Source of the DNA: Bryobacterales bacterium
Lineage (GTDB): Bacteria; Acidobacteriota; Terriglobia; Bryobacterales; Bryobacteraceae
Assembly: GCA_027452065.1 (NCBI GenBank)
Contig: DAIDHC010000010.1
Location: forward strand, 1-64,000
Length of the DNA stretch: 64,000 nucleotides
Direction of reading: 5' to 3'
Shown here: positions 10,751 through 60,402 of the stretch, one piece after another
Position numbering within the stretch: the stretch's first letter is position 1
Layout of the letters: each line of letters begins with the position of its first letter
Made by a program: the position numbers and the translations under genes
Notes under the pieces: model-generated
Database searches by the model: none
The model's input: the letters and a program-made list of their open reading frames with translations, nothing else
Told to the model about the DNA's origin: nothing

Positions 10751-10759
10751 GCTCCCTTG

Positions 10760-11701: not shown

Positions 11702-11738
11702 GTCGCACCGGATCGAACCGCACCGGAGCTAACTGCAA

Positions 11739-12878
11739 ATGACAAGCCCAATCGACTTCCGAAGCCAGGCTTCCGCGGCGGCAGACCGCCTGCTCGTTCA
11801 TCAATGGCGCCTTTGGTTCTGGGGAGATTCCATCGGCCTTGATGGCCTCCTCGATGCCACCGAGCTTACGGGCGACGGCAGATACCTCGGATTTGTCCAC
11901 GGACTGCTGAAGGGTTGGATCGCGCGCGAGCAGCACCGCAGCAAGTTCGACTACACGGCGCCCGGCGTGGCTTTGCTCCGCGCCTGGCAGCACACGGGCG
12001 ACCCTGCACTGCTGGCCGCCGCCCGCCGCCACGCCGATTATATGGCGGGATTCCGCCAAACCACCTCCGGCGCTTACATGCGCTATGAAGATGCTGCGAT
12101 CGAGCTGCCGCCGGAGCTTCCTCCTGACCACAAGGACTACGACGCGATCCGTCAACGACGGGCGGCGGAGAACGGAGGCCCTTGTGTCTTTGTCGACTGT
12201 GTTCATTTCGATGCGCCGTTCTTTGCGAAACTGTATGAGGTCACAAGGGAGCCTCAATATCGCGAACTCGCGTTGCACAACATACTGCCGCAGATCGAGC
12301 TGCTCTGGGACCGGGAGGAACATCTGTTCCATCACTTCTGGATGGAGCGAACCGGCCGGCCGAACGGCGTACTGTGGGGCCGGGGAAACGGTTGGGGTCT
12401 GCTGGGAGTCGTGCTCACGCTTGAATACCTCGGCGCCTCGGAAGAATCCGCCGCTCCCCTGCGGTCCGTGCTCATCGCGACGCTGGAACGGCTGGTCCAA
12501 CTCCAGCATGCGTCGGGAGCGTGGCATACGGTGCTGAATGATCCGGATTCCTACGTCGAGAGTTCCACCGCTGCCTTCTATGCCGACGTGATCGCACGGG
12601 CATTACGCCTCGGTCTGATCTCCGGCAGCCGTTATTCTGAAGTTCTGGAACAAGCGATGCACTTCGTACTTAAACGTGTTGATGACCGCGGCGTGTTCCA
12701 GGGTGTTTCCTACGAAACCTTCCCCAGTACACGCGCGCAGCATTATCGTGAGATGCCGCGAGGCGCGTCGGTTCCCTGGGGTCAGGGACCGCTGCTGTGC
12801 TGCCTCCGGTCGTATGCAGACCTGTATCTGCCATCGGGCAACTCCGGCGGCCGCAGGGAGACGCATGCCACCCAATGA
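11739..12878 (+). CDS. GH88/GH105-family unsaturated rhamnogalacturonyl hydrolase
   Basis: A 379-residue alpha/alpha-barrel enzyme. Typical family segments are GVALLRAWQHTGDP, FVDCVHFDAPFFAKL near residue 155 (the Asp in this type of motif is the catalytic residue in YteR/UGL relatives), and VLWGRGNGWGLLGVVLTLEYL near residue 210. These enzymes hydrate and release the unsaturated uronic acid left at the end of oligosaccharides by lyases, so it complements the lyase-like gene at 1-1620. No signal peptide is visible, so it is probably cytoplasmic, acting on imported disaccharides. It overlaps the next gene by 14 bases. GH88 rather than GH105 specificity cannot be excluded. Confidence 0.83.
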   Translation: MTSPIDFRSQASAAADRLLVHQWRLWFWGDSIGLDGLLDATELTGDGRYLGFVHGLLKGWIAREQHRSKFDYTAPGVALLRAWQHTGDPALLAAARRHADYMAGFRQTTSGAYMRYEDAAIELPPELPPDHKDYDAIRQRRAAENGGPCVFVDCVHFDAPFFAKLYEVTREPQYRELALHNILPQIELLWDREEHLFHHFWMERTGRPNGVLWGRGNGWGLLGVVLTLEYLGASEESAAPLRSVLIATLERLVQLQHASGAWHTVLNDPDSYVESSTAAFYADVIARALRLGLISGSRYSEVLEQAMHFVLKRVDDRGVFQGVSYETFPSTRAQHYREMPRGASVPWGQGPLLCCLRSYADLYLPSGNSGGRRETHATQ

Positions 12879-13626: not shown

Positions 13627-13644
13627 TCGGGCTATGGAGACCAT

Positions 13645-14820: not shown

Positions 14821-14826
14821 GCCGGT

Positions 14827-16691: not shown

Positions 16692-16699
16692 GTCTGAGA

Positions 16700-18874
16700 A
16701 TGCGAAAAGCTCCAACGGAGGTGACGCGGCGAGAATTTGCACAGATGCTCGCCACAGCTTACTGCCTGAGCGGCGCGGCAGTGGCGCAGGGCGGCGACGG
16801 GACGCGCGTGTGGCGAATCGGCAACGCCGGTATCGAGCAAATCCTCCAGCTTCGATCCGGAAAGTTTTCCTGCACCTCGATCCGAAACGTGCGCGCAGAC
16901 CGCGAGTGGATCCATCCTTCCGTGCCTTCGCTGGAATTTCGTATTGATGGCGAAATGGACGGCAAGACGTTCCAGTTAACCGGCGAGGGGCCGTGGACTG
17001 TTCTTCGCGAAGGCAACAGTACAGCCGGAGCATGGCGGCAGCTCACCATCGAGTTGAAGAGCGGCGACCTGCCATTCCATGTCGTGCGCGATTATCTTGT
17101 TCACGAGCGCCTGCCGATTCTGCGGACGCGGACTTCGGTCATCAATGGTAGCCAGCGAAGTGCCATCCTGCATCGAGTGGATACGTTCCATCTTCGCGTC
17201 GCTCCGTCGGCCGAGCCGCTCGATCTGAAGTGGTTGAACGATTTCGGGCGTGCGATGCTCCCCGAACCCGGGAATCCTCTGCATCTTTGCTCGATCACGG
17301 AAAATGTGCGCCAAGTACTGCGCACGGGGCCATACTCGCCCGACTTTGGCTGGTTCAGTCTTGCGATGCCTGACACAACGGAAACGCTGATCGGCGGCTG
17401 GGAATGGTCCGGCCCGATGGTGGTTGCCTTCGGCGACCTTCAGGAACCCTGTCCGATTGAAGGCGGCCTCGACCCGGATGGTATGCGCGAACCGTTCGCG
17501 CCGGGCGCCCGGTTTCAAGCTCCGGTCGGATGGTATGGTTTTTCGGGGACGCTGGAGGAGCAGGCTGCGCTGAGTCATGAGCTCGTGCGGACTTCCCTTG
17601 GCCCACCGCTTCCGGCTCACGATTTTCCCTGGGTCGGCTATTGCACTTGGGCGTGCTCGCTCGATGAGAAGAGCCCCTATAACGAGCCCGGCACGCATCC
17701 CTGGTTCCCGACCGAGAGCAATTTGTTGTCCCAGGTGGACGCCGCCGCCCAGGTGGGCTGCGATCTGTACCTGTGGGATTACGGCTGGTTTCCGCGCGTC
17801 GGCGATTGGTGGTGCGACCCAAAACGTTTTCCCGACGGACCGCGAACCGTGTCCCGTTCGGTGAAGCAGCGCGGGATGAAACTCGGCCTTTGGTTCGGAT
17901 TCGGCAATGCGGACGGGCAGTCGCGCGTGGCTCGCGAACATCCCGATTGGCTTGCCACGTGGAACGGCAGTCCGCTGCCGGATAAGTTCTTCACGCGGAC
18001 CGGCGCATCGGTTTGGAAGACGCGCGTGCTCTGTCTCGGGCACCGGCCCGCGCGCGAGTGGGTGAAGCAACAACTGTCCCGAGTAATCGACGCGTTCGAG
18101 CTCGACTGGCTGAAGCACGATTTCGACCTCGTCACCATGTGTGATTCCACCTCCCACACGCACACCCCAGGAGACAGTCGAATCGCTTCCTGCGAGGGGT
18201 TCTACGAGATCATGGATTTCGTCCGGCAAAGGTACCCCAACCTTGTTTGTGAAAACTGGGCCAACAACAGCGGACTTCCTGATTACGGCGCGCTGCAGCG
18301 TCATCACGTCCAGTTGATCGGCGATACCTACGCCGCCTTTACGCTGCGGCAGATGTTCTACGGCCACTTGTTCGTGTTCCCTGCCGACCGGCAGCACCGG
18401 TACGTGCGCTTTGAGGACTCGTCGGGCGATTTGAAGACGATGCTGCGCAGCGGCCTGATGGGAGGGCCGTGCACAATCCTCAGCGACCCCAGGCAGCTCA
18501 AGCCGGAGCAGCGCCAGGTGCTCGCGGCCGAGGTCGATCGTTACAAGCACTGGAGGGGCTTATTCGCCACAGCCGAGGTACATTCGATTCTTGGCCGGCC
18601 CCATCCACGCACCTGGGATGCCACGCAGTTCCAGGATTCCGCTTCCGGGCGCGGTATCGTTTTCGCATTTCGCAACGGCACGCCCGAGGCCGCCCGGCCG
18701 CTGCGCCTCCGCGGACTGGACCCCGACGCCGACTATCGGGTGGAGATGGTGGAGGCAAATGAATCCCGCGTCATTCGAGGCAGCCAGATGCTCTCTGCCG
18801 GGCTGACGGTCCCGATTCCCCAAGCCAACCAATCCGAAATCGTCCTTCTCACAAGAACCGGGAGAAGCGCGTGA
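16700..18874 (+). CDS. GH36-like alpha-galactosidase-type enzyme, Tat-exported
   Basis: A 724-residue protein. The N-terminus has a twin-arginine signal (TRREFAQMLATAYCLSGAAVA). After a beta-sandwich domain comes a GH36/GH27-type barrel: VGYCTWACSLDE, LYLWDYGWFPRVGDWW, MKLGLWFGFGNADG, and DWLKHDFDLV, where the Asp after KH is at the expected nucleophile position. A C-terminal beta domain follows. The family releases alpha-linked galactose, but related barrels act on other sugars, so specificity is open. It would work in the periplasm and stands out in an operon of otherwise cytoplasmic enzymes, linking side-chain removal with catabolism. Confidence 0.78.
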   Translation: MRKAPTEVTRREFAQMLATAYCLSGAAVAQGGDGTRVWRIGNAGIEQILQLRSGKFSCTSIRNVRADREWIHPSVPSLEFRIDGEMDGKTFQLTGEGPWTVLREGNSTAGAWRQLTIELKSGDLPFHVVRDYLVHERLPILRTRTSVINGSQRSAILHRVDTFHLRVAPSAEPLDLKWLNDFGRAMLPEPGNPLHLCSITENVRQVLRTGPYSPDFGWFSLAMPDTTETLIGGWEWSGPMVVAFGDLQEPCPIEGGLDPDGMREPFAPGARFQAPVGWYGFSGTLEEQAALSHELVRTSLGPPLPAHDFPWVGYCTWACSLDEKSPYNEPGTHPWFPTESNLLSQVDAAAQVGCDLYLWDYGWFPRVGDWWCDPKRFPDGPRTVSRSVKQRGMKLGLWFGFGNADGQSRVAREHPDWLATWNGSPLPDKFFTRTGASVWKTRVLCLGHRPAREWVKQQLSRVIDAFELDWLKHDFDLVTMCDSTSHTHTPGDSRIASCEGFYEIMDFVRQRYPNLVCENWANNSGLPDYGALQRHHVQLIGDTYAAFTLRQMFYGHLFVFPADRQHRYVRFEDSSGDLKTMLRSGLMGGPCTILSDPRQLKPEQRQVLAAEVDRYKHWRGLFATAEVHSILGRPHPRTWDATQFQDSASGRGIVFAFRNGTPEAARPLRLRGLDPDADYRVEMVEANESRVIRGSQMLSAGLTVPIPQANQSEIVLLTRTGRSA

Positions 18875-19854: not shown

Positions 19855-19904
19855 TGGTCATTCGTGGAGTGCTCCGGGACAAACATGGGTATTGAGGTCC
19901 TTGT

Positions 19905-21290
19905 ATGATTGTCGATTCGCCCATATCTCCTCCTCCGGAAATTGAACGGCGGCAATTTCTGAAGCTCGCCGGTTCCGCCAGCGCTCTCGCTGCACGCTCC
20001 TATGCTCGGGTGATCGGAGCCAACGATCGTATCCGGGTTGCGCAACTCGGATGCGGCGGCCGAAGCGGCGGCCACGTGAACATGGTCCACGCGGCCGCCC
20101 GCCGAACGCCTGTGGAAACCGTCGCTGTCTGCGATATCTGGAGTCTGGCGCGCGAGCGGCGAGCGGCTCAAGTGAAGCAGTTGTCCGGCATGGCGCCGGC
20201 GATGTACAAGTACTCCGAGCAGATGCTCTCTCGTCACGACATTGACGGCGTGATGATCGCCACCGGCGATCATCAGCACGCCAAACTCTGCGTTGAAGTC
20301 GTGAATGCGGGCAAGGATTGCTACGTCGAAAAGCCGTTCGCGAATGTGCTCGATGAAGCCAAAGCCGCACGAGCTGCCGTCAAGAGTTCCGGGCAGGTCG
20401 TCCAGATGGGGACCCAACACCGCAGCCAGCCGTACCCTCTCGCCGTGCGCGACCTGATTCGCTCCGGCCGCATCGGTGAAGTGGTTCGCATCACCCAGGA
20501 GTGGAACGAAAACAAACGTCGCTGGCGGTACATCCCGGGCATCGATGACGGAAAACGGCCGCCGCTGCTCAGGCAGGAGGACACCGACTGGGAACGGTGG
20601 CTGCTGGGCAAGCCGCATCGTCCGTTCGACCCTCATGTCTACCTTGAATTCCGGCTCTATCGCGAGTATTCAGGCGGTATCTTCGATCAATGGCTGAGCC
20701 ACGCCTGCGATCTGGTTCACCTGTGGACCGATGAAACCTGCCCCGTCAGCGCCGTTGCTACCGGTGGCATTCTCACCTGGAAAGACGGACGCGAGAACCC
20801 CGACAATGCCACTGTCTCGTTGATGTATCCGAAGGGTTTTCTCTACACCTACTCCACGTCGTTCTCGAACAGCTACCGCAGCTACAGCCGTATTCAAGGC
20901 CGCCTCGGCACCATTGAAAACTACGGAGGCGAGGGTGCGTCACTGTTCATGGTCACCCGCGAGGGCGGACCTCATGAAGCCGATCCCGAAGAGAGCCTGG
21001 GTCCCCGCTACACGGCTCCGCCCGGAATGGGACCGGCGGCCGACGCGGCGGAAATCATTCACATCGACGGCGCGCCTAAGCCTGACTCCGTCGGACCGGA
21101 CGACGACGATGTGGACCACTTGATGAACTGGCTCGACGCGATGAGGGATCGCAAACAGCCCAATGCGAATGTCGATCACGGATTCTCCCACGCCATCGTC
21201 TGCATGATGGCCGCTCAATCCTACTGGTCCGGAAAGCGATTGTACTGGAATCCCCGGACGGAGACAATTGAGAGCCACGAGGCCACATAG
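19905..21290 (+). CDS. Gfo/Idh/MocA-family oxidoreductase, Tat-exported (first copy)
   Basis: A 461-residue protein with a Tat signal (IERRQFLKLAGSASALAA) and then a Rossmann domain (RIRVAQLGCGGRSGG). EKPFANVLDEAKAA holds the conserved Lys-Pro of the family, and the C-terminal half is the alpha/beta catalytic domain. A GAGG-like ribosome site sits eight bases before the ATG. Members oxidise or epimerise sugars using tightly bound NAD(P). Tat export fits a cofactor loaded before transport. It follows the DMT transporter after 50 bases and is probably the last gene of the operon; the opposite-strand TPR gene ends 18 bases beyond it. Confidence 0.87.
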   Translation: MIVDSPISPPPEIERRQFLKLAGSASALAARSYARVIGANDRIRVAQLGCGGRSGGHVNMVHAAARRTPVETVAVCDIWSLARERRAAQVKQLSGMAPAMYKYSEQMLSRHDIDGVMIATGDHQHAKLCVEVVNAGKDCYVEKPFANVLDEAKAARAAVKSSGQVVQMGTQHRSQPYPLAVRDLIRSGRIGEVVRITQEWNENKRRWRYIPGIDDGKRPPLLRQEDTDWERWLLGKPHRPFDPHVYLEFRLYREYSGGIFDQWLSHACDLVHLWTDETCPVSAVATGGILTWKDGRENPDNATVSLMYPKGFLYTYSTSFSNSYRSYSRIQGRLGTIENYGGEGASLFMVTREGGPHEADPEESLGPRYTAPPGMGPAADAAEIIHIDGAPKPDSVGPDDDDVDHLMNWLDAMRDRKQPNANVDHGFSHAIVCMMAAQSYWSGKRLYWNPRTETIESHEAT

Positions 21291-48417: not shown

Positions 48418-50166
48418 ATGAACTTCAGAGCTTTGCTGCTGGGCACGGTCCTGGCTCTCGGAAGCACCGCCGCGCTCAGCGCCGCGCCCCAATTGCGCCT
48501 CACCTCATCGGCTCTCGGACCGTACGTCGTCGCCGCGGGCTCCAATCTCAATAATGGTCAGGCCGTCGTCGTCAACGCCGCCAACATCGGCTCCGGTTCC
48601 CTCAGTCTTCAGGTCTCCTCCTCGGTCACCTGGCTGTCGGCCACCGTCGGCGCCGCTCAATCCTGCACCGTTTTCAAAACCTGCTACCCCATCAGCATCA
48701 CCGGCCAGACTTCTTCGCTCGCCGCCGGAACATACACCGGCCTCATCACCGTCAACGACCCCAACGCCGTCGACGCGCCACAGTCCATCAGCGTCACCGT
48801 GCAGGTCGGCTCAGACGTGCCGAGTTCGCTCCAGTTCTATCTCGCCCCCGGCGGCACGGCGACCTCCTCGTTCACCACGTCGAGCGCCGTCACCGCCACC
48901 TCCTCCGCCTCCTGGCTTTCGGTCGGGCTGCAAGGTACGGGAACGTACAACTTCGCTGTTCCCTACAAAGTCACCGCCACCGCCGCCTCCAACATGGCGG
49001 CGAACACATATAACGGCACATTTACCCTGGCCGGCTCTAAGCTCGCCGATGACAATAAGACGGTCAACGTCACTCTCCAGGTCACATCTTCGCCCATCGC
49101 CCAGCCCAGCGCTTCCGAGATCGATCTGAAACTTGCCGCCAACAGCATCAAGCAGACCGTGCCGGTGAGCATCGCGAACTCCGGCATGGGCACGCTCACC
49201 GTCAGCAGTGCCACCGCCACAGCCGCCAGCAACGGAACCTGGCTCACCGCCACCAACAACGGAAATGTCGTTTCCGTCGTCGCTGACCCCACCAATCTTT
49301 CGCCCGGCCCCTACACCGGCACGGTGACGGTGAAATCGAATGCCGTCAATTCCGTCACCATCTCCGTCAACCTCACTGTCGTCGCCCAAAGCGCGCCGCT
49401 GGCCAACTTCCAGGGTGTCGTCAACAATGCCACGTTCGTGCCCGGCGAAAAGGTCGCCCCCGGCGATATCATCGCTATCTTCGGCGAACAGTTCCTTTAC
49501 AGCGACAGCCCGCTCTACGCCTCGGCCACTCCGCTGCCGACCAGCCTCGGCGGCTCTTCCGCCACCCAGGTGCTGGTCAACGGCCAGCCCGCCCCGCTCT
49601 ACTTTGCCAGCTACAACCAGATCGATTTCCAGATGCCCTACGAGACCCAGGCCGGTCAGGCCGTGATCCAGGTCGTCCGCGCAGGCCAGACCGGCAATAG
49701 CATCGCGGTCGAGGTTGCAAAAAATCAGCCGCGCATTCTCCCCTTCGCCTACGGCAACTACGGCATCATCCAGAACGCCACCCAATCGGGCTTCGCGGTT
49801 TCTCAGGCCGCGGCCACCGCTCTCGGCCTTCCGGTCGCCCATCCGGCCAAGGCGGGCACCGATTATCTCACCATCTACGCTATCGGCCTCGGCCCCACAT
49901 CGCCCGCCGCGGTCACCGGCGCTGCCGCCTCCGGGACAGTCCTCTCCCATGTTTCTCTTGCCACCAGCGTCGTCTTCTCCGCCAACAATCCTTTCGCCAC
50001 CTCCGTCACGGCAACGCCCAGCTTCGCCGGGCTCGCGCCCAACTTCGTCGGACTCTACCAGGTGAACGTCCAGGTCCCCGCCAACTCGCCCAAAGGCGAC
50101 AGCGTGCCCCTGTATCTGGTGAACGGCGGCGTCCTCAGCAACATCGTCAACATCGCCGTCCAGTGA
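48418..50166 (+). CDS. secreted beta-sandwich protein with C-terminal TIGR03437 domain
   Basis: A 582-residue protein with a Sec signal (MNFRALLLGTVLALGSTAALSA). About three immunoglobulin/BACON-like repeats follow, each with a W-L-S/T-A element (VTWLSATVG, ASWLSVGLQ, GTWLTATNN) and a closing PGPYTGTVTV-type strand. From about residue 340 the TIGR03437 domain runs to the end: VVNNATFVPGEKVAPGDIIAIFGEQF, LPTSLGGSSATQVLVNGQPAPLYFASYNQIDFQMPYE, and VGLYQVNVQVPANSP. This domain is largely restricted to Solibacter-type Acidobacteria and supports the lineage call. Function is unknown; surface adhesion or carbohydrate binding is plausible. Confidence 0.88.
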   Translation: MNFRALLLGTVLALGSTAALSAAPQLRLTSSALGPYVVAAGSNLNNGQAVVVNAANIGSGSLSLQVSSSVTWLSATVGAAQSCTVFKTCYPISITGQTSSLAAGTYTGLITVNDPNAVDAPQSISVTVQVGSDVPSSLQFYLAPGGTATSSFTTSSAVTATSSASWLSVGLQGTGTYNFAVPYKVTATAASNMAANTYNGTFTLAGSKLADDNKTVNVTLQVTSSPIAQPSASEIDLKLAANSIKQTVPVSIANSGMGTLTVSSATATAASNGTWLTATNNGNVVSVVADPTNLSPGPYTGTVTVKSNAVNSVTISVNLTVVAQSAPLANFQGVVNNATFVPGEKVAPGDIIAIFGEQFLYSDSPLYASATPLPTSLGGSSATQVLVNGQPAPLYFASYNQIDFQMPYETQAGQAVIQVVRAGQTGNSIAVEVAKNQPRILPFAYGNYGIIQNATQSGFAVSQAAATALGLPVAHPAKAGTDYLTIYAIGLGPTSPAAVTGAAASGTVLSHVSLATSVVFSANNPFATSVTATPSFAGLAPNFVGLYQVNVQVPANSPKGDSVPLYLVNGGVLSNIVNIAVQ

Positions 50167-51332
50167 CCCAGCGTCTTTACTACGACGACAGCTACCTGCG
50201 CCGGTTCGAGGCTCGTGTCCTCGGCACGAGTCCCGACCGCCGCCTGGTTTACCTCGACCGCACGGCCTTCTACCCCACGTCCGGCGGCCAGCCGCACGAC
50301 CTCGGAACCCTCGCCTCACAACCCGTCCTCGACGTCTCCGATGAGGACGGCGGCATCGCCCATCAACTCGAAACCCCGCTGCCCGAAGGCGCCGAATCCG
50401 GCCCCGTCGCCGGCCTGCTGGACTGGACCCGCCGCTTCGATCACATGCAGCAGCACACCGGCCAGCATCTGCTTTCCGCCGTTTTTCTTCGTGATCTCGG
50501 CGCCGAAACCGTTAGCTTCCATCTGGGCGCCGAATCCAGCACCATCGATCTCGCCGCTCCCCTGCCCGACGCGGCATCGCTGGTCCGCCTCGAGCGCGCC
50601 GCCAACGCCATTGTCTTCGAGAACCGGCCCGTCGCCGTCACCTACGCCGACTCCTCCGAGCCGCTCAACCTCCGCAAGCCTTCGGCCCGCGCCGGCGCCA
50701 TCCGCATCGTCGAAATCGACTCACTCGATCGCAGCGCCTGCGGCGGCACCCACGTCAAGGCAACCGGCGAAATCGGACCCATTCTTCTCCGCAAGATCGA
50801 AAAGATCCGCAACAACGTTCGCGTCGAATTCCTCTGTGGCTTCCGCGCCGTCGACGCCGCCCGCCGCGATTTCGACGAGCTATCCTCTGTCGCCCGCTTC
50901 TTCTCCGCTCCCCGCGAGCAGGTCCTCGCCTTGGCCGAAGCCCAGCGCGCCCGCCTCGAAGACGCCGAGAAAACGCGCCGCCGCCTCGGCGCTGAGCTGG
51001 CCACTCTCCAAGGCCTCCGCGCCTACGACGAAACTCCGCCCGATCCCTCCGGCCTTCGCTGCCGTGTCGTCCGCCTCGGTTCGCTCAACGACGAAGTCCG
51101 CGCGGAAGCACAGAGCTTCACCAGCCGCCCCGGGGCGTGGTTTCTCGCCCTCGGCTCCCGCCCGCCCGCCGTTCTTCTGGCTGTCTCCGCCGACGTTCCT
51201 TCCGCCGGTCCCCGCCTGCAGTCTGTCCTGTCCGGCTTGGGCGGCCGCGGCGGCGGCAGCGCCCGCCTGGCCCAGGGCAGCCTCCCCAACGAGTCTCTTC
51301 TCGCCGAAGCCGAGCGTCTCCTGCTACCCTGA
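50163..51332 (+). CDS. AlaX-like alanyl-tRNA editing protein with DHHA1 tail
   Basis: A 389-residue protein. The GTG start overlaps the previous stop as GTGA. The editing domain has the zinc ligands in HTGQHLLS and CGGTHVKATGEIG, and FYPTSGGQPHDLG is typical. A coiled coil (LAEAQRARLEDAEKTRRRLGAELATLQ) leads into a DHHA1-like end (GGRGGGSARLAQGSL). This matches class II AlaX, which hydrolyses mischarged Ser- or Gly-tRNA(Ala) in the cytoplasm. Its position between a secreted adhesin-like gene and an exported glycosidase is functionally odd. Confidence 0.9.
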   Translation: MTQRLYYDDSYLRRFEARVLGTSPDRRLVYLDRTAFYPTSGGQPHDLGTLASQPVLDVSDEDGGIAHQLETPLPEGAESGPVAGLLDWTRRFDHMQQHTGQHLLSAVFLRDLGAETVSFHLGAESSTIDLAAPLPDAASLVRLERAANAIVFENRPVAVTYADSSEPLNLRKPSARAGAIRIVEIDSLDRSACGGTHVKATGEIGPILLRKIEKIRNNVRVEFLCGFRAVDAARRDFDELSSVARFFSAPREQVLALAEAQRARLEDAEKTRRRLGAELATLQGLRAYDETPPDPSGLRCRVVRLGSLNDEVRAEAQSFTSRPGAWFLALGSRPPAVLLAVSADVPSAGPRLQSVLSGLGGRGGGSARLAQGSLPNESLLAEAERLLLP

Positions 51333-51343
51333 TTGGGAACCAG

Positions 51344-54250
51344 ATGCCGCACGGCTCCCGACGCGCTTTCTGCGCCCAGGTTGGACTCGGTCTCACGCTC
51401 TCGCGCCGCCTCGGCGCTGCGCCACCTCCAATAATTACGCTCGACTCCGTCCGTTCCGCCCCGCCGCGCCTTTCCGCCTCCAACGCCTCCGCGCTCAAGC
51501 TCACCCGCCCCTGGAACGGCAATCTCTGCCGCCCCACTCTCACCAACACCGGCACCACTCCGGTCCGCGTCCGCGAGGTGGTTCTCTTCTCCATCGAACA
51601 TGCCCTGCCTCCGGAGACCGGCCTCTACGGCGAGAGCTTCCAGATGCTGTCCCAAACGTCGGGCACGCTCGGCCGCCCGATTGATCTCGGCATGTCCGAG
51701 CGCCGCCACTACCGCATTCCCCAACCGGACGACGCCCTCGCGCTCACCGGCCTGCTCGCTCTTTCCCCTCCTTCCCATCCCGTCGCTGCCCTGGCCTTCA
51801 CCTCCTGCCGCCGTTTCGCCGGCCGCTTCTACCTCCGTCCCGGCTCCGTCGAGGTCGTCATCGACACCGAGAACCTGTCGATCAATCCCGGCGAAACCTG
51901 GCCTCTCGAAGAATTTTCCTTTTTCGACGGCCCATCCCTTTCCGCCCTCCTCGACCGTCTCGCCGCGCGCATCGTCGAAAATCATCCCACGAAGCTTTTT
52001 CCGTCCCCGCCCGCCGGCTGGTGCTCCTGGTATTGCTTCGGTCCCCGCGTCACCGCCCGCGAGGTGCGCGAAAATCTCGACGCCATCGCCGCCCACATGC
52101 CCTCCCTGCGTTACGTCCAACTCGATGACGGCTACCAGCGCGCCATGGGAGACTGGCTCGAAACCGGCGACGCTTTCGGCGGCGGCATCCTCAGCCTCCT
52201 TCAGGACATTCGCCGCCGCGGCTTCGAGCCCGCCATCTGGGTCGCACCCTTCATCGCCGAGGCCGGCTCCCATCTGTTCCAGAATCATCCCGACTGGTTT
52301 GTCCGCGACGACGCCGGCCGCCCGCTCTCCTCCGATCGTGTCAGCTTCGGCGGCTGGCGCCGCGGCCCCTGGTACAGCCTCGACGGCACCCACCCCGAAG
52401 CCCGCCTCCACATCGAGTCCGTCTTCCGCACGATGCGCCGCGACTGGGGCTGCACCTACTTCAAGCTCGACGCCAATTTCTGGGGAGCCATTCACGGCGG
52501 CCGCTTCCACGACCCCAACGCCACCCGTATCCAGGCCTACCGCCTCGGCATGGAGGCCGTCCGCCGCGGCGCCGGCGACGCCTTCCTGCTCGGCTGCAAC
52601 CACCCCATCTGGGCGTCCTTCGGCCTCATTGACGGCTCTCGCTCCTCCAACGACATCTCGCGAGAATGGCAGGCCATCCGCTCGGTCGCCCGCCAAGCCC
52701 TCGCCCGCAACTGGCAGAATGGCCGCCTCTGGTGGAACGATCCCGACGCCGTCGTTCTCACGGGCGCCCTCACCGGGGACGAAATTCGCTTCCACGCTAC
52801 CGCGGTCTACGCCTCCGGCGGCCTCATCCTCTCCGGTGACGACCTCTCCCAGCTCAGCGCCGGGCGCTTCGCCATGCTTGCCAAGCTCCTCCCGCCCGCT
52901 GCCCATGCCGCCGCCTTCGACGATCTCTCGCTCCGTTCTGGTTTCGTGGATCTCCCGGGAACCCGCATGGCTTGCCTGTTCAACTGGGATGATGCCCCCT
53001 CGCCGGCCACCATCCGCCTCGAACGTCCCGCCGAAATCTCCGACTTCTGGACCGGCCAGTCCCTCGGCCGCCACCAAGGCGAATTCAACGTCGGCGAGAT
53101 GCCGCCCCGCTCCGCGCGCCTCCTGGCCTGCCGCGCTCCCGCCCTCGCCTTCGATGTTGCCGCCTTCGATCGGCGCCGCGTTCTCGATGCCGCCGCCCGC
53201 TTTCTCGCCGACCCACCGGTCACCATCACCGCCGCCACCTCGTCGCGCAGCGCCGGCGGGCGCCACGATTTCTTCTCCGAGGGCGATTACTGGTGGCCCG
53301 ATCCCGCCGGCCCCCAGGCGCCCTATGTCCGCCGCGACGGTTTGTCCAATCCGGCTAATTTCAATAGCCATCGCGAATTCCTCATGCGTTTCAGCGTCCG
53401 TATGCCGGCCCTCGCCGCCGCCTGGAAACTCACTTCCGATCTCCGCTACGCCCGCCATGCCGCCGCCCATGCCCGTGCCTGGTTTCTCGCTCCCGAAACG
53501 CGCATGAATCCCAGCCTCGAATTTGCCCAGGCCATTCACGGCCGCGTCACCGGCCGCGGCACCGGCATCATCGACACTATTCACCTGGTCGAGGTTGTTC
53601 AGGCGCTCCGCGTCATCGAGCCCTCCGGCGCTCTCTCGCCGGAAGAAATGCGTGGCATCCGCATCTGGTTTACCGATTACCTCAACTGGCTGACAAGCTC
53701 TCCCCACGGCATCGAAGAACGCGAGGCGAAGAACAACCACGCCTCATGCTGGGTGATGCAGGCCGCCTGTTTCGCCCGCTTCACAGGTAATGACACCGTT
53801 ACCGGCTACTGCGCAGACCGCTTCCGCACCGTCCTTCTGCCCAACCAGATGGCCCCCGGCGGCAGCTTCCCGCTCGAGCTCCGCCGCACCAAACCCTATG
53901 GCTATTCGCTGTTCAACCTCGAAGCCCTGGCCGCCGTCTGCCGCATTCTTTCTATTCCGGGCGATTCGCTGTGGGAGTTTCAGTTGTACGACGGCCGCTC
54001 GCTCCGCCGCGGCGTCGAATACATGCTCCCCTTCATCTCCGACAAGCGCCGCTGGCCTCTGCAGCCCGATGTAATGTATTTCGACGACTGGCCCATGCGC
54101 CAGTCCAGCCTTCTGTTCGCCGCCGAAGCTTACGGCGACCGAAGCTATCTCGATGTCTGGAAGAAGCTGCCCGCCGATTCGAGCGTCAACGAGGTCACTC
54201 GCAATTTCTTCCTCCGTCAGCCCGTCCTCTGGGAAGGCGAATGGTCGTAG
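51344..54250 (+). CDS. fusion of a GH36-like alpha-galactosidase domain and an alginate-lyase domain, Tat-exported
   Basis: A 968-residue protein from the ATG at 51344 (MPHGSRRAFCAQVGLGLTLSRR, Tat-like); the track start lies inside the AlaX gene. Residues about 30-600 form a GH36-like enzyme: AGWCSWYCFGPRV, RYVQLDDGYQRAMGDW, CTYFKLDANFWGAIHGG (nucleophile Asp) and a later SNDIS. From about 640 the chain becomes an alginate-lyase-superfamily alpha-barrel: EGDYWWPDPAGPQAPYVRRDG, PSLEFAQAIHGRVTGRGTGIIDT, and EREAKNNHASCWVMQAACFARF with the family's NNH. The reading frame is continuous with no sign of a lost stop. One protein could therefore remove alpha-galactosyl units and cut a uronate chain. 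Confidence 0.82.
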   Translation: MPHGSRRAFCAQVGLGLTLSRRLGAAPPPIITLDSVRSAPPRLSASNASALKLTRPWNGNLCRPTLTNTGTTPVRVREVVLFSIEHALPPETGLYGESFQMLSQTSGTLGRPIDLGMSERRHYRIPQPDDALALTGLLALSPPSHPVAALAFTSCRRFAGRFYLRPGSVEVVIDTENLSINPGETWPLEEFSFFDGPSLSALLDRLAARIVENHPTKLFPSPPAGWCSWYCFGPRVTAREVRENLDAIAAHMPSLRYVQLDDGYQRAMGDWLETGDAFGGGILSLLQDIRRRGFEPAIWVAPFIAEAGSHLFQNHPDWFVRDDAGRPLSSDRVSFGGWRRGPWYSLDGTHPEARLHIESVFRTMRRDWGCTYFKLDANFWGAIHGGRFHDPNATRIQAYRLGMEAVRRGAGDAFLLGCNHPIWASFGLIDGSRSSNDISREWQAIRSVARQALARNWQNGRLWWNDPDAVVLTGALTGDEIRFHATAVYASGGLILSGDDLSQLSAGRFAMLAKLLPPAAHAAAFDDLSLRSGFVDLPGTRMACLFNWDDAPSPATIRLERPAEISDFWTGQSLGRHQGEFNVGEMPPRSARLLACRAPALAFDVAAFDRRRVLDAAARFLADPPVTITAATSSRSAGGRHDFFSEGDYWWPDPAGPQAPYVRRDGLSNPANFNSHREFLMRFSVRMPALAAAWKLTSDLRYARHAAAHARAWFLAPETRMNPSLEFAQAIHGRVTGRGTGIIDTIHLVEVVQALRVIEPSGALSPEEMRGIRIWFTDYLNWLTSSPHGIEEREAKNNHASCWVMQAACFARFTGNDTVTGYCADRFRTVLLPNQMAPGGSFPLELRRTKPYGYSLFNLEALAAVCRILSIPGDSLWEFQLYDGRSLRRGVEYMLPFISDKRRWPLQPDVMYFDDWPMRQSSLLFAAEAYGDRSYLDVWKKLPADSSVNEVTRNFFLRQPVLWEGEWS

Positions 54251-54278: not shown

Positions 54279-55091
54279 TCACACAAATTCCTCGTAGCGC
54301 TGCCGTACCCGGGCCGCAGTTTCCACCGGCGGCGCGTTCCAGATCGATTCGTTGAAAATCTCCACCTCGATCGCTCCGTCGTAGCCCGCCGCTTCCACTG
54401 CTTGGCGGATTCTCCGCAGCTCGATGCACCCGTCCCCCATCATGCCCCGGCCCATCAGTATGTCCGGCAGCGGTACGATCCAGTCCGACACATGGAACCC
54501 CACGATACGGCCCCGGGCCCGCTCGATCTCCGCGTAAAGCTCCGGATCCCACCAAACATGGTACGCGTCGATCACTACCCCGACCTCGTCGCCGAATTGC
54601 CGGGCAATGCCGTTCGCCTCACCCAGGGTCACAATCACGGATCGGTCTGCCGCAAACATCGGATGCAGCGGTTCGATTCCCAGCTTTACCCCCAGCCGCT
54701 TCGCCTCCGGCGCCAGCTCTGCAATTGCATCCTCCACCATTCGCCGCGCCCCGTCCAGATCCCGGTCCGGCGCCGCCCCGCATACCAACACCAATACTCC
54801 CGCGCCCAGCCCCGCCGCCTGCTCCAGCGCCACCAGGTTATCGGCAATCCGCTCCCGCCGTTCCTCCGCCGTCGCCGCCGGAAACAACCCGCCCCGGCAG
54901 AGGCTCGATACCCGCAGCCCCGCCTCGCGGATCAGCCGCGCGTCCCTCCGTACGTCGCCCGCCGCCAGCTTGTGCCGCCACGGTGCAATCCATCCGATGC
55001 CCGCGGCATTGCACGCCTCCACCGCCTGCTGGAGCGTCGCGTGCCCCGACGTGATCTGGTTAAAGCTCAGCTTCGCTAAGCCGGCCTCCAT
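54279..55091 (-). CDS. sugar phosphate isomerase/epimerase-type TIM barrel (cytoplasmic)
   Basis: A 270-residue protein whose ATG at 55091 overlaps the DUF993 gene stop as TGATG; the longer track frame is spurious. The barrel holds the metal ligands of the xylose-isomerase-like family: Glu in VKLGIEPLHPMF, Asp-His in VVIDAYHVWWDP, His in IVGFHVSDW, and Glu in DGAIEVEIFNESIWNA. No signal peptide is present, unlike the paralogous-type enzyme at 36075. It is the last gene of an operon with a regulator, a Gfo/Idh/MocA oxidoreductase and a DUF993 aldolase-like protein, a set that suggests a keto-sugar pathway. Confidence 0.85.
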   Translation of the reverse strand: MEAGLAKLSFNQITSGHATLQQAVEACNAAGIGWIAPWRHKLAAGDVRRDARLIREAGLRVSSLCRGGLFPAATAEERRERIADNLVALEQAAGLGAGVLVLVCGAAPDRDLDGARRMVEDAIAELAPEAKRLGVKLGIEPLHPMFAADRSVIVTLGEANGIARQFGDEVGVVIDAYHVWWDPELYAEIERARGRIVGFHVSDWIVPLPDILMGRGMMGDGCIELRRIRQAVEAAGYDGAIEVEIFNESIWNAPPVETAARVRQRYEEFV

Positions 55092-56248
55092 CAATCGATG
55101 CCTCCCAGCGCCAGCACGTACTTCATCCGCTGCGCCGCCATCTCCGCATCCCGGATCAGCCCCGCGCCATCCGCCAGCACGAACAGGTCGGCCAGATGCG
55201 GCAGCGACCGCCATCCCTCCTGCGCCCCCAGCATCCGGAAATGTCTCTGGTGCCCGTTCAGGTATGCCAGAAACACCACGCCCGTCTTGTAAGCGTAAGT
55301 CGGCGCCTGGAAAATGTGCCGCGACAGTGGGATCGTCGGTTTCAACAATTCCCTGTATCGCTCGCTGTCGCCCCCATCGAGCGCCCGCAGCGCCGCCGCC
55401 GCCACCGGCGCGATCGCGTCGAAGATCCCCAGCAGCGCGTCGCTGTGCCCACGCTCGTCGCCCAGAATCAGCTCATCGTAATGAAAGTCGTCGCCGGTGT
55501 ACATCCTCACCCCGGCCGGCAGTCTCCGCCGCATCTCAATCTCCCGCCCCTTGTCGAGCAGCGAGATCTTGATCCCGTCCACCTTGGCTCTGTTCTCGGT
55601 GATGATCCCCAGACACACATCCATCGCCAGCGCCGGATCCCGGCTCCCCCAGTAGCCGCCCAGCAGCGGATCGAACATTTCTCCCAGCCAGTGCAGGATC
55701 GCCGGCCGCCGCAGTTCTCCCAGCACCGTCCCGTAAATCCGCGCGTAATCCTCCGGCCCCCGCGCGCACGCCGCCAGCGCCCGGCTCGCCATCACGATCG
55801 CCTGCGCCCCCAGCGAATCGGCGAATTCGCACTGTTCCCGGTACGCCGCCAGTACCTGCTCCAGGTTCGCTCCCGCCGGCGCTGCAAGCTGGTCCGTTCC
55901 CACGCCGTAGGCGATTCGCCCGCCTCCGCTCTCGGCCACCGACCGCCGCATCAGCTCCCGCGCCTGCTCATAGCTCAGCCCCCCGCCGCGCTGCGCCGTG
56001 TCCATCGCCTCGGCTATCGCAAATCCCTGCTTCCACAGGTACCGCCGGTAGGCCAGCGTCGCATCCCAGTCGATCGCCGCTCCGCACAACGGATCTCCCG
56101 CCGCCAATGGATCCACCACCACGTGCGCCGCTGCGAACGCAACCCGGCTGGTGAACGGCGCCGGAGCCGTCTCCCATCCCCGGTTCTCCCTCATCCGGTA
56201 CTCTTTCACCCGGCCTCCACCCACCGGCAGCGTCACCGAAATCGCCAC
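55091..56248 (-). CDS. DUF993, dihydrodipicolinate-synthase-like protein
   Basis: A 385-residue protein; the GTG at 56248 is chosen because it gives VAISVTLPVGGGRVKEYRM, the usual opening of this family, and AAGGAC lies just before it. DUF993 proteins are placed in the dihydrodipicolinate synthase/aldolase superfamily. AILHWLGEMFDPLLGGYWGS and ENRAKVDGIKISLLDKGREI are characteristic, with the Lys of GIKIS at the position expected for a Schiff base. The reaction is not established; an aldol cleavage of a ketodeoxy sugar acid is the natural guess from neighbours. It lies 4 bases after the Gfo/Idh/MocA gene. Confidence 0.82.
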   Translation of the reverse strand: MAISVTLPVGGGRVKEYRMRENRGWETAPAPFTSRVAFAAAHVVVDPLAAGDPLCGAAIDWDATLAYRRYLWKQGFAIAEAMDTAQRGGGLSYEQARELMRRSVAESGGGRIAYGVGTDQLAAPAGANLEQVLAAYREQCEFADSLGAQAIVMASRALAACARGPEDYARIYGTVLGELRRPAILHWLGEMFDPLLGGYWGSRDPALAMDVCLGIITENRAKVDGIKISLLDKGREIEMRRRLPAGVRMYTGDDFHYDELILGDERGHSDALLGIFDAIAPVAAAALRALDGGDSERYRELLKPTIPLSRHIFQAPTYAYKTGVVFLAYLNGHQRHFRMLGAQEGWRSLPHLADLFVLADGAGLIRDAEMAAQRMKYVLALGGID

Positions 56249-56252
56249 GTCC

Positions 56253-57401
56253 TTATACCTCCGCCAGCCGCGGCACGTCCACCCATTGCCGCTTCTGCCA
56301 CGACTCGTAGGCCAGTTCAGCCAGTTGCACTCCCTTGGCCGCCTCCACGAATCCATGCGGAAACGCCGCATCCTCGGCCACGTGCCGCAGAAACATCTCC
56401 CACTGCGTCTTGAACGCGTTGTCAAACACCATGTTGTCCGGCACGTCTTCCCACCCGTCCCGGTACTTCAGCGCTGAGGGCACGTCCGGGTTCCACACCG
56501 GCTTGGGAGTGAAGCTCCGATGCTGCACTTTGCAATCGCGCAGGCCCGCCACCGCGCTCCCCTCCGTCCCGTCCACCTGGATCGTCAGCAGATCGTCCCG
56601 GTACACCCGGAAAGCCCACGATGCGTTCAGTTGCACCAACACGCCGCTGGCCAGTTCAAACATTCCGTATGAGCTGTCATCGGCCGTGCAGGGGTACTTC
56701 ACGCCCCGCTCGTCCACACGCTCTGGAATGTGGATCGCCCCGTGGCACAGCAGCGACTTCACACGTCCGAACAGCCCCTCCAGTACATACTGCCAGTGCG
56801 CGTACATGTCCAGAATCATCCCTCCGCCGGCCTCTTTGCGGTAGTTCCACGACGGCCGCTGTGCCGGCTGCCAGTCCCCCTCGAATACCCAGTATCCGAA
56901 CTCGCCCCGCACCGAAAGGATCCGCCCGAAGAATCCTCCCTCCACCAGCCGCTTCAGCTTCCGCATGCCCGGCAGAAACAGTTTGTCCTGCACAATGCCG
57001 TTCTTTCGTCCCCGTTCCCGCGCCAGCCGCGCCAGCTCCAGACACGCTTCGATGCTCGTCGCCAGCGGCTTCTCGCAGTAAACGTGCTTGCCGCTCTCGA
57101 GCGCCGACTTCACGTCCGGGAATCGCCGCGCCGTCGCCTGCGCGTCGAAATATACCGGATACTCCTCCGACGCCAGACACTCCTCCAGGCTCGTGCTCCA
57201 TCGCGCCACCCCGTGTTCGGCCGCCAGCCGCTTCAGCTTCTCCTCGCTCCGCCCCACAAGAATCAACTCCGGCATCACCCTCTCGCCGCCGCTCAGCTCC
57301 ACCCCGCCCTCGCGCCGGATCGCCAGCAGCGACCGCACCAGGTGCTGGTGCGTGCCCATCCTCCCCGTCACTCCGTTCACGATGATCCCGATGTTTTTCA
57401 T
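56253..57401 (-). CDS. Gfo/Idh/MocA-family oxidoreductase (cytoplasmic)
   Basis: A 382-residue protein from the ATG at 57401, overlapping the regulator stop as ATGA. MKNIGIIVNGVTGRMGTHQH is a Rossmann start resembling dihydrodipicolinate-reductase-like GVTGRMG. VYCEKPLATSIEACLEL holds the conserved Lys-Pro and GGGMILDMYAHWQYVLEGLFG the catalytic His region. It has no export signal, unlike the two other copies in the window. It is expected to oxidise a sugar or inositol-type substrate with NAD(P), feeding the DUF993 and isomerase proteins encoded after it. Confidence 0.88.
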   Translation of the reverse strand: MKNIGIIVNGVTGRMGTHQHLVRSLLAIRREGGVELSGGERVMPELILVGRSEEKLKRLAAEHGVARWSTSLEECLASEEYPVYFDAQATARRFPDVKSALESGKHVYCEKPLATSIEACLELARLARERGRKNGIVQDKLFLPGMRKLKRLVEGGFFGRILSVRGEFGYWVFEGDWQPAQRPSWNYRKEAGGGMILDMYAHWQYVLEGLFGRVKSLLCHGAIHIPERVDERGVKYPCTADDSSYGMFELASGVLVQLNASWAFRVYRDDLLTIQVDGTEGSAVAGLRDCKVQHRSFTPKPVWNPDVPSALKYRDGWEDVPDNMVFDNAFKTQWEMFLRHVAEDAAFPHGFVEAAKGVQLAELAYESWQKRQWVDVPRLAEV

Positions 57402-58564
57402 GTCCGGCCTCCCATCATAGCTTCCGCGAGCGCCCGCCCACCCGCCATCAAGGCATCGTTCGGATAGTGATGGTCCACGTTCTCCGGCGTGATTAACTGG
57501 TGCTTCACGAACACCGCCGGCGGCACCGGCCTTCGGTTCAACAAATCCATGGCCACGCGCACCAGGTCGCGCCCGTAGCGCTCCGGAAAATAACCTACCG
57601 ATCCGATCAGCCTCGTGCCCGGCTCCCTCAGCTCCATCCGCGCTTCCGGCGACGCGTTGTGCCCGACAATCGCGCAGTTCGCCGTTCGCCCCGTTTCCTG
57701 AAACGCCCGCAGGGCCCCCAGCGCGCTCGCGTCGTTGATCGCGCACACCAGGTACTGCCCCATCCGCCCGCCCCGCAGAAATTTCCTCACCGCCTCCAGG
57801 CTCGCTCCCAATTGCCCGTTCCCGTCCAGCCGCGTCACCGGCCGCTCGTCAATGTCCGGCAGCGCTTCCTTCATCCCCACCAGCATCCCCGTCAGCCGCA
57901 TCCTCGGCAAACTCCCCGCCCGCGGCAGCTCCAGGAACACCACCTCGTCCACCTTTCCCTGCCAGTGCTGCTTCGCCCATCGCCCCAGATGCCGCCCGCC
58001 CAGCAGCCCCGCTCCGTAATTATTCGCCCCGTAATATGTCGCCCCGGGATGCGGAATGTCGATCGCGATCAGCGGTATGTTCGCCTCCCGGTATTTGGCC
58101 GCGATGATCGGCGCCACGGTCTCATCCGTCTGGAACTCGATCACCAGGTCCACCTTCTCCCGGATCAGCAGATCGGCGTTCCGCTGCGCAATCCGCGCGT
58201 TGTAGCGGTTGTCCACCGTGATCACTTCAATCCCCTCGGCCCGTGCCGCCGCCAGCAGGCTCTCCGATACCCCGCGCGAAAAATCGTCGTCCGCCCCCTG
58301 CGCCGCATACCCCAGCCGGTGCCGCTTCTGCCTCACCGGCCTCACGCACGAGCGGTACTGGTTCTCCCCCACCTTCTCCACCATCCCGCACTTCTCCAGC
58401 GTGTACAGCAGCCGGAACGACATCCCCTTCGTCAATCCCGACCGCGCCGCCACGTCCCGCAGCCGCAGCGTCTCCCCCGCCGTTTGAAATGCCGCCAGCA
58501 ATTGCGACGCATGCACCAGGCTCTTCACCAGGTATGGATCCCGCGTTGCTCCCGAATTCCCCAT
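57398..58564 (-). CDS. unusual regulator: IclR-type winged helix fused to an RbsB-like sugar-binding domain
   Basis: A 388-residue protein. Residues 10-75 are an IclR-type HTH (SLVHASQLLAAFQTAGETLRLRDVAARSGLTKGMSFRLLYTLEKCGMVEKV). The rest is not an IclR effector domain but a periplasmic-binding-protein fold (VDLVIEFQTDETVAPIIAAKYREANIPLIAIDIPHPGATYYGANNYGAG, then GQYLVCAINDASALGALRAF), as in LacI or RbsB. It heads the operon and is divergent from rhaI by 288 bases, so it may sense the sugar and control both sides. GGAG lies before the ATG. A CCACGTGG palindrome sits just upstream of the start. Confidence 0.83.
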   Translation of the reverse strand: MGNSGATRDPYLVKSLVHASQLLAAFQTAGETLRLRDVAARSGLTKGMSFRLLYTLEKCGMVEKVGENQYRSCVRPVRQKRHRLGYAAQGADDDFSRGVSESLLAAARAEGIEVITVDNRYNARIAQRNADLLIREKVDLVIEFQTDETVAPIIAAKYREANIPLIAIDIPHPGATYYGANNYGAGLLGGRHLGRWAKQHWQGKVDEVVFLELPRAGSLPRMRLTGMLVGMKEALPDIDERPVTRLDGNGQLGASLEAVRKFLRGGRMGQYLVCAINDASALGALRAFQETGRTANCAIVGHNASPEARMELREPGTRLIGSVGYFPERYGRDLVRVAMDLLNRRPVPPAVFVKHQLITPENVDHHYPNDALMAGGRALAEAMMGGRT

Positions 58565-58852
58565 ATCAGCTCCACGTGGTGCCGGACAATTTTCTTACGA
58601 TGCACAATACCACACCGCCGCCCCGAATCCGTTCCGCTTCTCGAAACAAGGCCCCCGCCGCCGCCCTCCCGGAGCCGGGCTCCCGCTCGCCGCAGCCCCC
58701 GCCAAACGGTCGCCACTCAGCCATCTGCGTCCCGCCCCGCCGCCAACGCCTCATTTCGCAGCCTGAAACGCCGTGCCCCCCGCGCGCCCGGCTTGAGCTA
58801 TGAGCTGCCCGCCGCTATGCTGGTGATCGGATTCCTGTTCGCCGGAGACAGC
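58565..58852 (+). other. divergent intergenic region between regulator and rhaI
   Basis: This region has no supported gene, although an open frame continues through it into rhaI. It contains a CCACGTGG palindrome near the regulator start and a GGAGCC-G-GGCTCC dyad at 58671-58683. No convincing -35/-10 pair was found for either direction. Confidence 0.5.
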
Positions 58853-60043
58853 ATGCGCGCCTCTCAATTCGATTCCATCCTCGCCACGCTCGACCGCTTC
58901 CGCATCGAAATCCCCTCCTGGGGCTTCGCCAACACCGGAACCCGCTTTGGCAAATTTGTCCAGCCTGCCGCCGCTTCCACCATCGCCGAAAAGCTCGCCG
59001 ACGCCGGCTTCGTCCACTCACTCACCGGCTGCTGCCCCACCGTCGCCCTCCACGTCCAGTGGGATTTTCCCCGCGGCATCGAGAGCGCCCCCGAAGTCGC
59101 CGGCCTCGCCGCCGCCCACGGCATTGCCCCCGGCTCCATTAATCCCAATCTTTTTCAGGACCAGATTTACAAGTACGGCTCCTTCGGCAATCCCGACCCC
59201 TCCGTCCGCGCCGCCGCCGCCCAACACGTCGCCGAAAGCATCGATATCGCCTCCCGCCTCGGCAGCCGCGACATTTCCCTCTGGTTCGCCGACGGCTCCA
59301 ACTACCCCGGCACCGCGAACATCCGCCATCGCCGCCGCTGGTTTCAGGAAGGCCTCGCCGCAGCCCATCGCCTCCTCAGCCCCTCCCAGCGCCTCCTCGT
59401 CGAGTACAAACCCTTCGAGCCCGCCTTCTATCACACCGATATCGCCGACTGGGGCATGGCCTTCCTCCTTGCCCGCGAGGCCGGCCCGCAAGCCCGCGTC
59501 CTCGTCGACACCGGCCACCACTACGCAGCCCAGAATATCGAGCAAATCGTCGCCTGGCTCCTCGATCACGGCATGCTCGGCGGTTTCCATTTCAATGACC
59601 GCCGCTATGCCGACGACGATCTCACTCTCGGTTCCATCGATCCCTATCAGCTCTTCCGCGTCTTCCACGAAATTCTCCTCTTCGAGTGGGAGCGTGGCGA
59701 GCAGGCCGGAATCGCCTTCATGATCGACCAGAGCCACAACCTCAAGGGCAAAATCGAAGCCATGATCCAGAGCGTCGTCACCGCTCAGGAGCTCATCTGC
59801 AAAGCCGCCCTTGTCGATCACGCCGCCCTCTCCGCCTTCCAGCTCTCCTGCGACCTCGTTCCAGCCGAGTCCTGCCTCCAGGACGCCTTCTCCACCGACG
59901 TCCGCCCCGTCATCGCCGAATGGCGCCGCGTCCGCGGCCTCCCCGAAAATCCCCTCGACGCCTTCCGCCACAGTGGCTACCTCGAGCGCATCACCGCCGA
60001 ACGCTCCGCCCACAGCAACGCCGGCGTCTCCTCCTATGCCTGA
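58853..60043 (+). CDS. rhaI: L-rhamnose isomerase (RhaI type)
   Basis: A protein of about 396 residues in the Pseudomonas stutzeri-type L-rhamnose isomerase family: IEIPSWGFANTGTRFGKF, VALHVQWD, YKYGSFGNPD, LWFADGSNYPG, VEYKPFEPAFYHTD (metal Glu), VLVDTGHHYAAQNIEQIVAWL, GGFHFNDRRYADDDLTLGSIDPYQLF and MIDQSHN all follow the expected order. It converts L-rhamnose to L-rhamnulose in the cytoplasm and can act on several aldoses. The ATG at 58853 is preferred to the one at 58817 because the shorter protein starts like known members. It is followed by the mutarotase gene. Confidence 0.93.
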   Translation: MRASQFDSILATLDRFRIEIPSWGFANTGTRFGKFVQPAAASTIAEKLADAGFVHSLTGCCPTVALHVQWDFPRGIESAPEVAGLAAAHGIAPGSINPNLFQDQIYKYGSFGNPDPSVRAAAAQHVAESIDIASRLGSRDISLWFADGSNYPGTANIRHRRRWFQEGLAAAHRLLSPSQRLLVEYKPFEPAFYHTDIADWGMAFLLAREAGPQARVLVDTGHHYAAQNIEQIVAWLLDHGMLGGFHFNDRRYADDDLTLGSIDPYQLFRVFHEILLFEWERGEQAGIAFMIDQSHNLKGKIEAMIQSVVTAQELICKAALVDHAALSAFQLSCDLVPAESCLQDAFSTDVRPVIAEWRRVRGLPENPLDAFRHSGYLERITAERSAHSNAGVSSYA

Positions 60044-60063
60044 CCCGGCCCGCTGACCCGCTC

Positions 60064-60402
60064 ATGGAACGCGTCTGCTTCCTTCTCCGTCTCCGTCCCG
60101 AGCGTCTCGATGAGTACAAGCGCCGCCACCAGGCCGTCTGGCCCGAAATGCTCGACGCCCTCCGTCGCGCCGGCTGGTGCAACTACTCTCTCTTCCTTCA
60201 TCCCGACGGCCTCCTGATCGGTTACTTCGAAACGCCCGACCTCGCCCGCGCCCGCGCCGCCATGGACAGCGAGGACGTCAATGCCCGCTGGCAGCGCGAA
60301 ATGTCCCCCTTCTTCGTTCCGCTCTCCAGTCCTCCCGACCACGCTTTCCTTCGCCTCGAAGAAATCTTCCATCTCGACGGCGCCGCTCTCCCGTCTCCAT
60401 GA
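60064..60402 (+). CDS. rhaM: L-rhamnose mutarotase
   Basis: A 112-residue protein, the normal size for RhaM. MERVCFLLRLRPERLDEYKRRHQAVWPEMLDALRRAGWCNYSLFL contains the conserved His of the active site (RRHQAVWPEM) and the Tyr-Ser of NYSLF; IGYFETPD and a late EEIFHLD complete the pattern. It interconverts alpha and beta rhamnose, supplying RhaI. It starts 20 bases after rhaI and its stop overlaps the next start as ATGA, so the three genes form one unit. Confidence 0.94.
   Translation: MERVCFLLRLRPERLDEYKRRHQAVWPEMLDALRRAGWCNYSLFLHPDGLLIGYFETPDLARARAAMDSEDVNARWQREMSPFFVPLSSPPDHAFLRLEEIFHLDGAALPSP

Follow-up and report, generated by a model that had tools for sequence, protein, structure and literature searches.

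A genus-specific fusion of a GH36-type glycosidase and a PL38-type lyase in Bryobacterales, with a probable galactose-decorated uronan as substrate

A single gene from a soil-type Bryobacterales bacterium encodes a GH36-type glycosidase (residues about 42–597) and, on the same chain, a PL38-type uronan lyase (residues about 603–963), giving a domain architecture that is new and made from two known families. We consider it likely that this genus-specific fusion joins two enzymes cooperating on a uronan that is decorated with alpha-galactosyl units and probably fucosylated as well. By their joining, an enzyme of alpha-galactosidase type and a uronan lyase are marked as members of one pathway, and the value of the fusion lies in this pointer to a pathway shared by two subfamilies that are widespread and uncharacterised. 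It also gives a functional sense to the pairs of separate genes in Chitinophaga and other Acidobacteriota, for which the substrate is narrowed to a uronan whose side chains are galactosyl and probably fucosyl. Many uncharacterised lyases of the same type are present in soil bacteria of these groups, so that assigning one of them would aid the annotation of many. All positions refer to the window, the whole stretch of 64,000 nucleotides that was analysed (Table 1).

Reading frame and domain organization of the fused protein

From the translation, it is clear that the fused gene is one continuous frame with zero internal stops, as the initial annotation had claimed, and all the landmarks quoted there are found in it, with LDDGYQRAMGDW from residue 260, FKLDANFW from 373, YWWPDP from 649 and NNH at 797–799. 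With an alternative start, the frame would reach upstream as far as 51137; position 51344 was taken as the start since this ATG lies 11 bases 3′ of the stop codon of the AlaX-like gene, opens a twin-arginine leader (MPHGSRRAFC) and is matched in relatives, both other fused proteins beginning with MKPSSRRDFC. The fused protein is probably exported by the Tat route. On the opposite strand, an open frame of 905 residues (51023–53740, −) lies over the fused gene; it is typical of GC-rich DNA and was not counted as a gene.

Table 1. Features of the fused gene and of other genes in the window
Feature	Position	Strand	Remarks
Fused gene, GH36-type glycosidase plus PL38-type lyase	51344..54250	+	968 aa plus stop; complete
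Likely Tat-type signal peptide, MPHGSRRAFC...LGAAP	51344..51421	+	Twin-Arg, then helical segment; kept in the two other fused proteins
N-terminal beta-sandwich of GH36 module, residues 42–196	51467..51931	+	AlphaFold secondary structure; Foldseek match to TmGalA
(beta/alpha)8 catalytic barrel of GH36 module, residues 225–513	52016..52882	+	Pfam and PDB matches, AlphaFold, Foldseek
Predicted nucleophile D376 (FKLDANFW; KxDxN)	52469..52471	+	Aligned to T. maritima GalA nucleophile; D in 20/20
Predicted acid/base D437 (SRSSND)	52652..52654	+	Aligned to T. maritima GalA D387; D in 20/20
C-terminal beta-domain of GH36 module, residues 532–597	52937..53134	+	AlphaFold model
PL38-type all-helical lyase module, residues 603–963	53150..54232	+	Directly behind GH36 module, about 8 linker residues
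Y649 (YWWPDP) and D665 (RRDG)	53288..53338	+	Equivalents of BoPL38 Y91 and D108, each mutated in published structures of BoPL38
N797-N798-H799	53732..53740	+	Equivalent of BoPL38 N242-H243 (H243 proposed catalytic base; PMC13169297)
Y854	53903..53905	+	Equivalent of BoPL38 Y298 (catalytic Tyr; PMC13169297)
AlaX-like tRNA-editing protein	50163..51332	+	11 bases upstream of fused gene; also next to it in the two other genomes with the fusion
GH88-type unsaturated-uronyl hydrolase	11739..12878	+	Candidate downstream enzyme for lyase products; on this contig at a distance of about 38 kb
Second, ordinary GH36 (Melibiase plus GH36 C domain)	16700..18874	+	Same sugar operon as GH88

For the N-terminal half, Pfam PF02065 (Melibiase) matched residues 265–378 with 35.2 bits against a cut-off of 27, covering 104 profile positions only, and among solved structures this half aligned to the Thermotoga maritima GH36 enzyme GalA (TmGalA, E 2e-45). 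This enzyme (PDB 1zy9, 5m1i), which shows 25% identity to the GH36 module over 286 aligned residues, shares with it the beta-sandwich, the (beta/alpha)8 barrel and the C-terminal beta-domain, and its nucleophile and acid/base Asp both align; unlike the fused protein, which carries a lyase after the GH36 part on the same chain, it is stand-alone with a single activity. The acid/base role is assigned to D437 because the GalA mutant chains 6gta and 6gwf carry Ala in this column (D387 of T. maritima GalA). D261, D262, W299, K374 and R433 are essentially invariant across 20 aligned GH36 homologues. A retaining alpha-galactosidase-type activity is predicted for this module.

The C-terminal half was matched by Pfam PF05426 (Alginate_lyase) on residues 628–904 with 272.6 bits against a cut-off of 22.2, a profile that by itself does not separate PL38 from PL5. 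No lyase family other than PL38 was present among the seven PDB sequence matches of this half, which include BACOVA_01668 from B. ovatus (3nfv, E about 5e-60 to 4e-59) and BoPL38 (8bdq, E about 7e-43 to 4e-42); a PL5 identity was rejected, since a PL5 structure is absent from these matches. Like BoPL38 (PDB 8bdq, 9fhu) and BACOVA_01668 (3nfv, 3nnb; 35% identity to 3nfv), the lyase module has an all-helical lyase fold, and it has equivalents of BoPL38 N242, H243, Y298, D108, Q173 and Y91, of which H243 and Y298 are the proposed H5-abstracting residues (PMC13169297). N798, H799, Y854 and D665 are kept in all 22 aligned lyase homologues. The single mismatch among the mutation-probed positions of BoPL38 is H297, preceding the catalytic Tyr, which corresponds to Gly853 in the fused protein and is Gly in 3nfv too. 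A His in this position is not known to be a defining feature of PL38; with the change to Gly, the specificity of the lyase may differ from that of BoPL38. Unlike the fused protein, the B. ovatus PL38 lyases have no GH module. The lyase module would be expected to act on a uronan by beta-elimination, and both active sites look intact, since the catalytic residues of the GH36 and lyase parts are conserved.

In addition to the sequence comparisons, an AlphaFold model of the whole chain was obtained from an input of 40 natural sequences, with a mean pLDDT of 86.9 and a pTM of 0.71. In this model, the beta-sandwich, the (alpha/beta) barrel and the beta-domain follow one another at the residues given in Table 1, with a purely helical part at 605–963 behind them, and the two modules are separated by about eight residues, with neither a flexible linker nor a binding module between them. 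Foldseek against the PDB retrieved TmGalA for the first part (TMt 0.74) and BACOVA_01668 (3nfv) and BoPL38 for the second (TMt 0.74–0.76). Taken together, the Pfam and PDB matches, which are far above what chance would give, the fold matches and the catalytic residues bear out the GH36-like glycosidase and the alginate-lyase-superfamily domain of the initial annotation, which had proposed a domain search and a structure prediction as a check; both folds were retrieved, and the contrary outcome of a C-terminal half without a lyase fold was not seen.

Occurrence and origin of the fusion

Two further members of the genus carry full-length fused homologues, each without a stop, at 64% identity; the fused gene was not found in a fourth genus member. 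Beyond these three members, no further GH36–PL38 fusion was found among 237 genomes of the family and none in 396 genomes drawn from the phylum, and in a wider GTDB-based collection only L002, which matches G001, is fused among the best 80 of 585 relatives; outside the family, rare further fusions may exist. Long open frames pointed to two other fusions, which were set aside: L033 (860 aa) owes its length to an extension of the open frame in a frame that differs from that of the GH29 gene, and for L009/G130 (947 aa) the codon model gives a gene of 585 aa. In per-domain trees, the three fused sequences form one clade with a support of 96 in each tree, and therefore the simplest account is one fusion in or near the genus ancestor. 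The fusion is best read, from these sequences, as recent, genus-specific and of single origin.

The source assembly is in 240 contigs, and a stop codon lost in the assembly might in principle have joined two genes, which the initial annotation had named as a refuting case. Such an artefact is extremely improbable, however, since the two independent full-length homologues share the unbroken frame and exclude a sequencing error at the junction, and a stand-alone lyase (L028) opens with its own signal peptide whereas the fusion has none at the junction. No paper on a GH36–PL38 protein was found in a literature search that had most subscription journals outside its scope, so the earlier view that the architecture is undescribed holds for the literature searched. 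In the survey of architectures, which the initial annotation had suggested as a check, the fusion was confined to one genus; that annotation had missed this confinement, and also that the two domains are separate genes elsewhere, often in tandem.

In Chitinophaga, GH36 and PL38 are adjacent separate genes at six of six loci among the best 80 of 585 relatives (L004, L016–L019, L023), the glycosidase first and the lyase immediately next. These pairs resemble the fusion in their two subfamilies (48–51% identity) and in their order, with the genes up to about 100 bases apart, and differ from it in giving two proteins, the lyase having its own leader; to our knowledge, they are uncharacterised. Four Acidobacteriota loci of this set (L005, L012, L021, L028) hold GH36 and PL38 in one cluster, in either order. 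In most Bryobacterales-type genomes the two genes are unlinked, and co-occurrence in the family is weak (a close GH36 in 21 genomes, 6/21 of them with a close lyase, versus 38/200 genomes overall), and hence this type of GH36 does not always come with the lyase.

Gene neighbourhoods

No obvious utilisation locus surrounds the fused gene in any of the three genomes, and its AlaX-like neighbour is probably unrelated to it in function. The operon with the GH88 gene (Table 1) also holds two dehydrogenases, a mandelate-racemase-type enzyme and an SMP-30 lactonase. As a whole, this probable sugar-acid operon (10757–21290) comprises the SMP-30 lactonase, GH88, an SDR, the mandelate-racemase-type dehydratase, a DUF4432 epimerase-like protein, an SDR, the GH36 melibiase, an EamA transporter and a Gfo/Idh oxidoreductase, and resembles an oxidative sugar pathway with an unsaturated uronyl hydrolase linked to it. 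Across the whole genome, only one Alginate_lyase domain is present, along with two GH88 (one of them in the window) and several GH29 and GH95.

Downstream lies a rhamnose-type locus (54279–63095) with a xylose-isomerase-like TIM barrel, DUF993, a Gfo/Idh oxidoreductase, an IclR-HTH/periplasmic-binding-type fusion, a second TIM barrel, a rhaM mutarotase and a GH106 rhamnosidase; a regulator pairing an IclR HTH with a sugar-binding domain is unusual. The rhamnose genes are convergent to the fused gene. A rhamnose polysaccharide as substrate, as GH106, rhaM and the sugar-isomerase-like genes (58805–63095) might indicate, was set aside because an other-strand block lies between these genes and the fused gene, next to which they are absent in the other two genomes.

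In the relatives, GH95 and GH29 make up 6/81 and 5/81 of the neighbours at GH36-bearing loci, and sulfatases 17/84 at stand-alone lyase loci, where GH29, GH2 and GH88 are found too. The Chitinophaga loci L016 and L017 have the order GH2, GH95, GH29, GH36, PL38, and in L004, L018, L019 and L023 GH95 stands directly 5′ of the pair. In L012, a galactose-1-phosphate uridylyltransferase (GalT) gene overlaps the called start of the stand-alone GH36 gene, and PL38, a symporter and a GH29-cluster gene lie upstream of the glycosidase. The order in L028 is a TonB/Oar-like receptor, a GH29-cluster gene, GH36, a second lyase-family (PL38-type) gene and GH88, followed by a GH36 with NPCBM, PL38, a sodium-solute symporter and an enolase-family dehydratase; this acidobacterial cluster (L028:6342–14365) is a doubled pair, in which a single GH88 is surrounded by two GH36-type genes and two PL38-type genes. 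GH88 enzymes act on the unsaturated uronyl end produced by lyases. In Bryobacterales, stand-alone close lyase homologues (L050, L055, L029, L034–L036, L039 and similar loci) stand directly between sulfatase genes and TonB/Oar-like receptors, which suggests a sulfated uronan for this branch.

Proposed action and substrate

The GH36 module would work as a retaining exo-glycosidase, in which D376 attacks the anomeric carbon and D437 donates a proton, removing a terminal alpha-D-galactosyl unit from the substrate. The PL38 module would then cut the uncovered uronic-acid chain by beta-elimination, with H799 and/or Y854 abstracting H5, and would leave a 4,5-unsaturated uronosyl end to be processed further by GH88-type hydrolases. 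The fusion would hold both activities on one chain without a second signal peptide. We infer the alpha-galactoside specificity, the uronan backbone, the order of action, the export route and a substrate bearing galactose and probably fucose from this set of observations; for the galactosylated uronan, these are the conserved active sites, the GalT gene abutting GH36 in L012 and the GH88 and fucosidase neighbours. The neighbour genes favour a uronan with both galactose and fucose, which may also be sulfated in the sulfatase-containing loci. The fusion and both folds of the initial annotation stand, and both catalytic centres are supported; that annotation had named galactose alone and missed the pointer to fucose from the gene context. 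Known PL38 substrates are alginate, beta-1,4-glucuronan and, as recently described, hyaluronan or chondroitin (PMC13027841; PMC11790493), a diversity that prevents the uronan from being named from sequence.

Two other readings share the domain assignment. The GH36/GH27 clan includes members that cut sugars of the same configuration, and the sugar that the GH36 module takes off the uronan might be, for example, beta-L-arabinopyranose or alpha-GalN/GalNAc instead of alpha-D-galactose; there are PDB matches to a galactosaminidase and a GH27 arabinopyranosidase, and a weak match to NCBIfam NF053652 (beta-L-arabinopyranosidase BtArabpyr). The latter, with 26.5 bits, is far under the cut-off of 1100, the top sequence and fold matches are plain alpha-galactosidases, and GalT abuts a homologous GH36 gene in L012, which makes another sugar unlikely. 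It is similarly doubtful that the two modules were joined for co-expression or shared export only and serve different glycans. Such a lack of cooperation would agree with the absence of a conserved sugar operon around the fused gene in the three genomes, with the weak co-occurrence in the family, and with the fusion of the same GH36 subfamily behind an AXE1-type esterase domain in a verrucomicrobial relative (L022:8789–11725); the adjacency in Chitinophaga and the clustering with GH88 and fucosidases in distant Acidobacteriota fit one shared substrate instead.

For the preferred reading, cooperation on a galactose- and probably fucose-bearing uronan, a Mucoromycota wall polyuronide is a candidate combining galactose, fucose and glucuronic acid, as in the Mucor mucedo glycuronan with Fuc:Man:Gal:GlcA of 5:1:1:6 (PMC6433966); bacterial exopolysaccharides and plant arabinogalactan are also possible. 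It would be a bold and rather improbable extension that the GH36/PL38/GH29/GH95/GH88 loci of Chitinophaga and Acidobacteriota, together with the fused enzyme, form a dedicated system for galactose- and fucose-decorated Mucoromycota wall polyglucuronides, in which one genus has combined debranching and chain cleavage on one polypeptide. We know of no bacterial degradation system for such polyglucuronides.

A different joining of two uronan-breakdown steps on one chain is seen in Ignavibacteria, where a 1183-residue GH88–GH2 fusion (L072:5226–8774) lies in a cluster with three PL38-type genes; unlike in the fused protein, other enzymes are joined there and the lyase is a separate gene.
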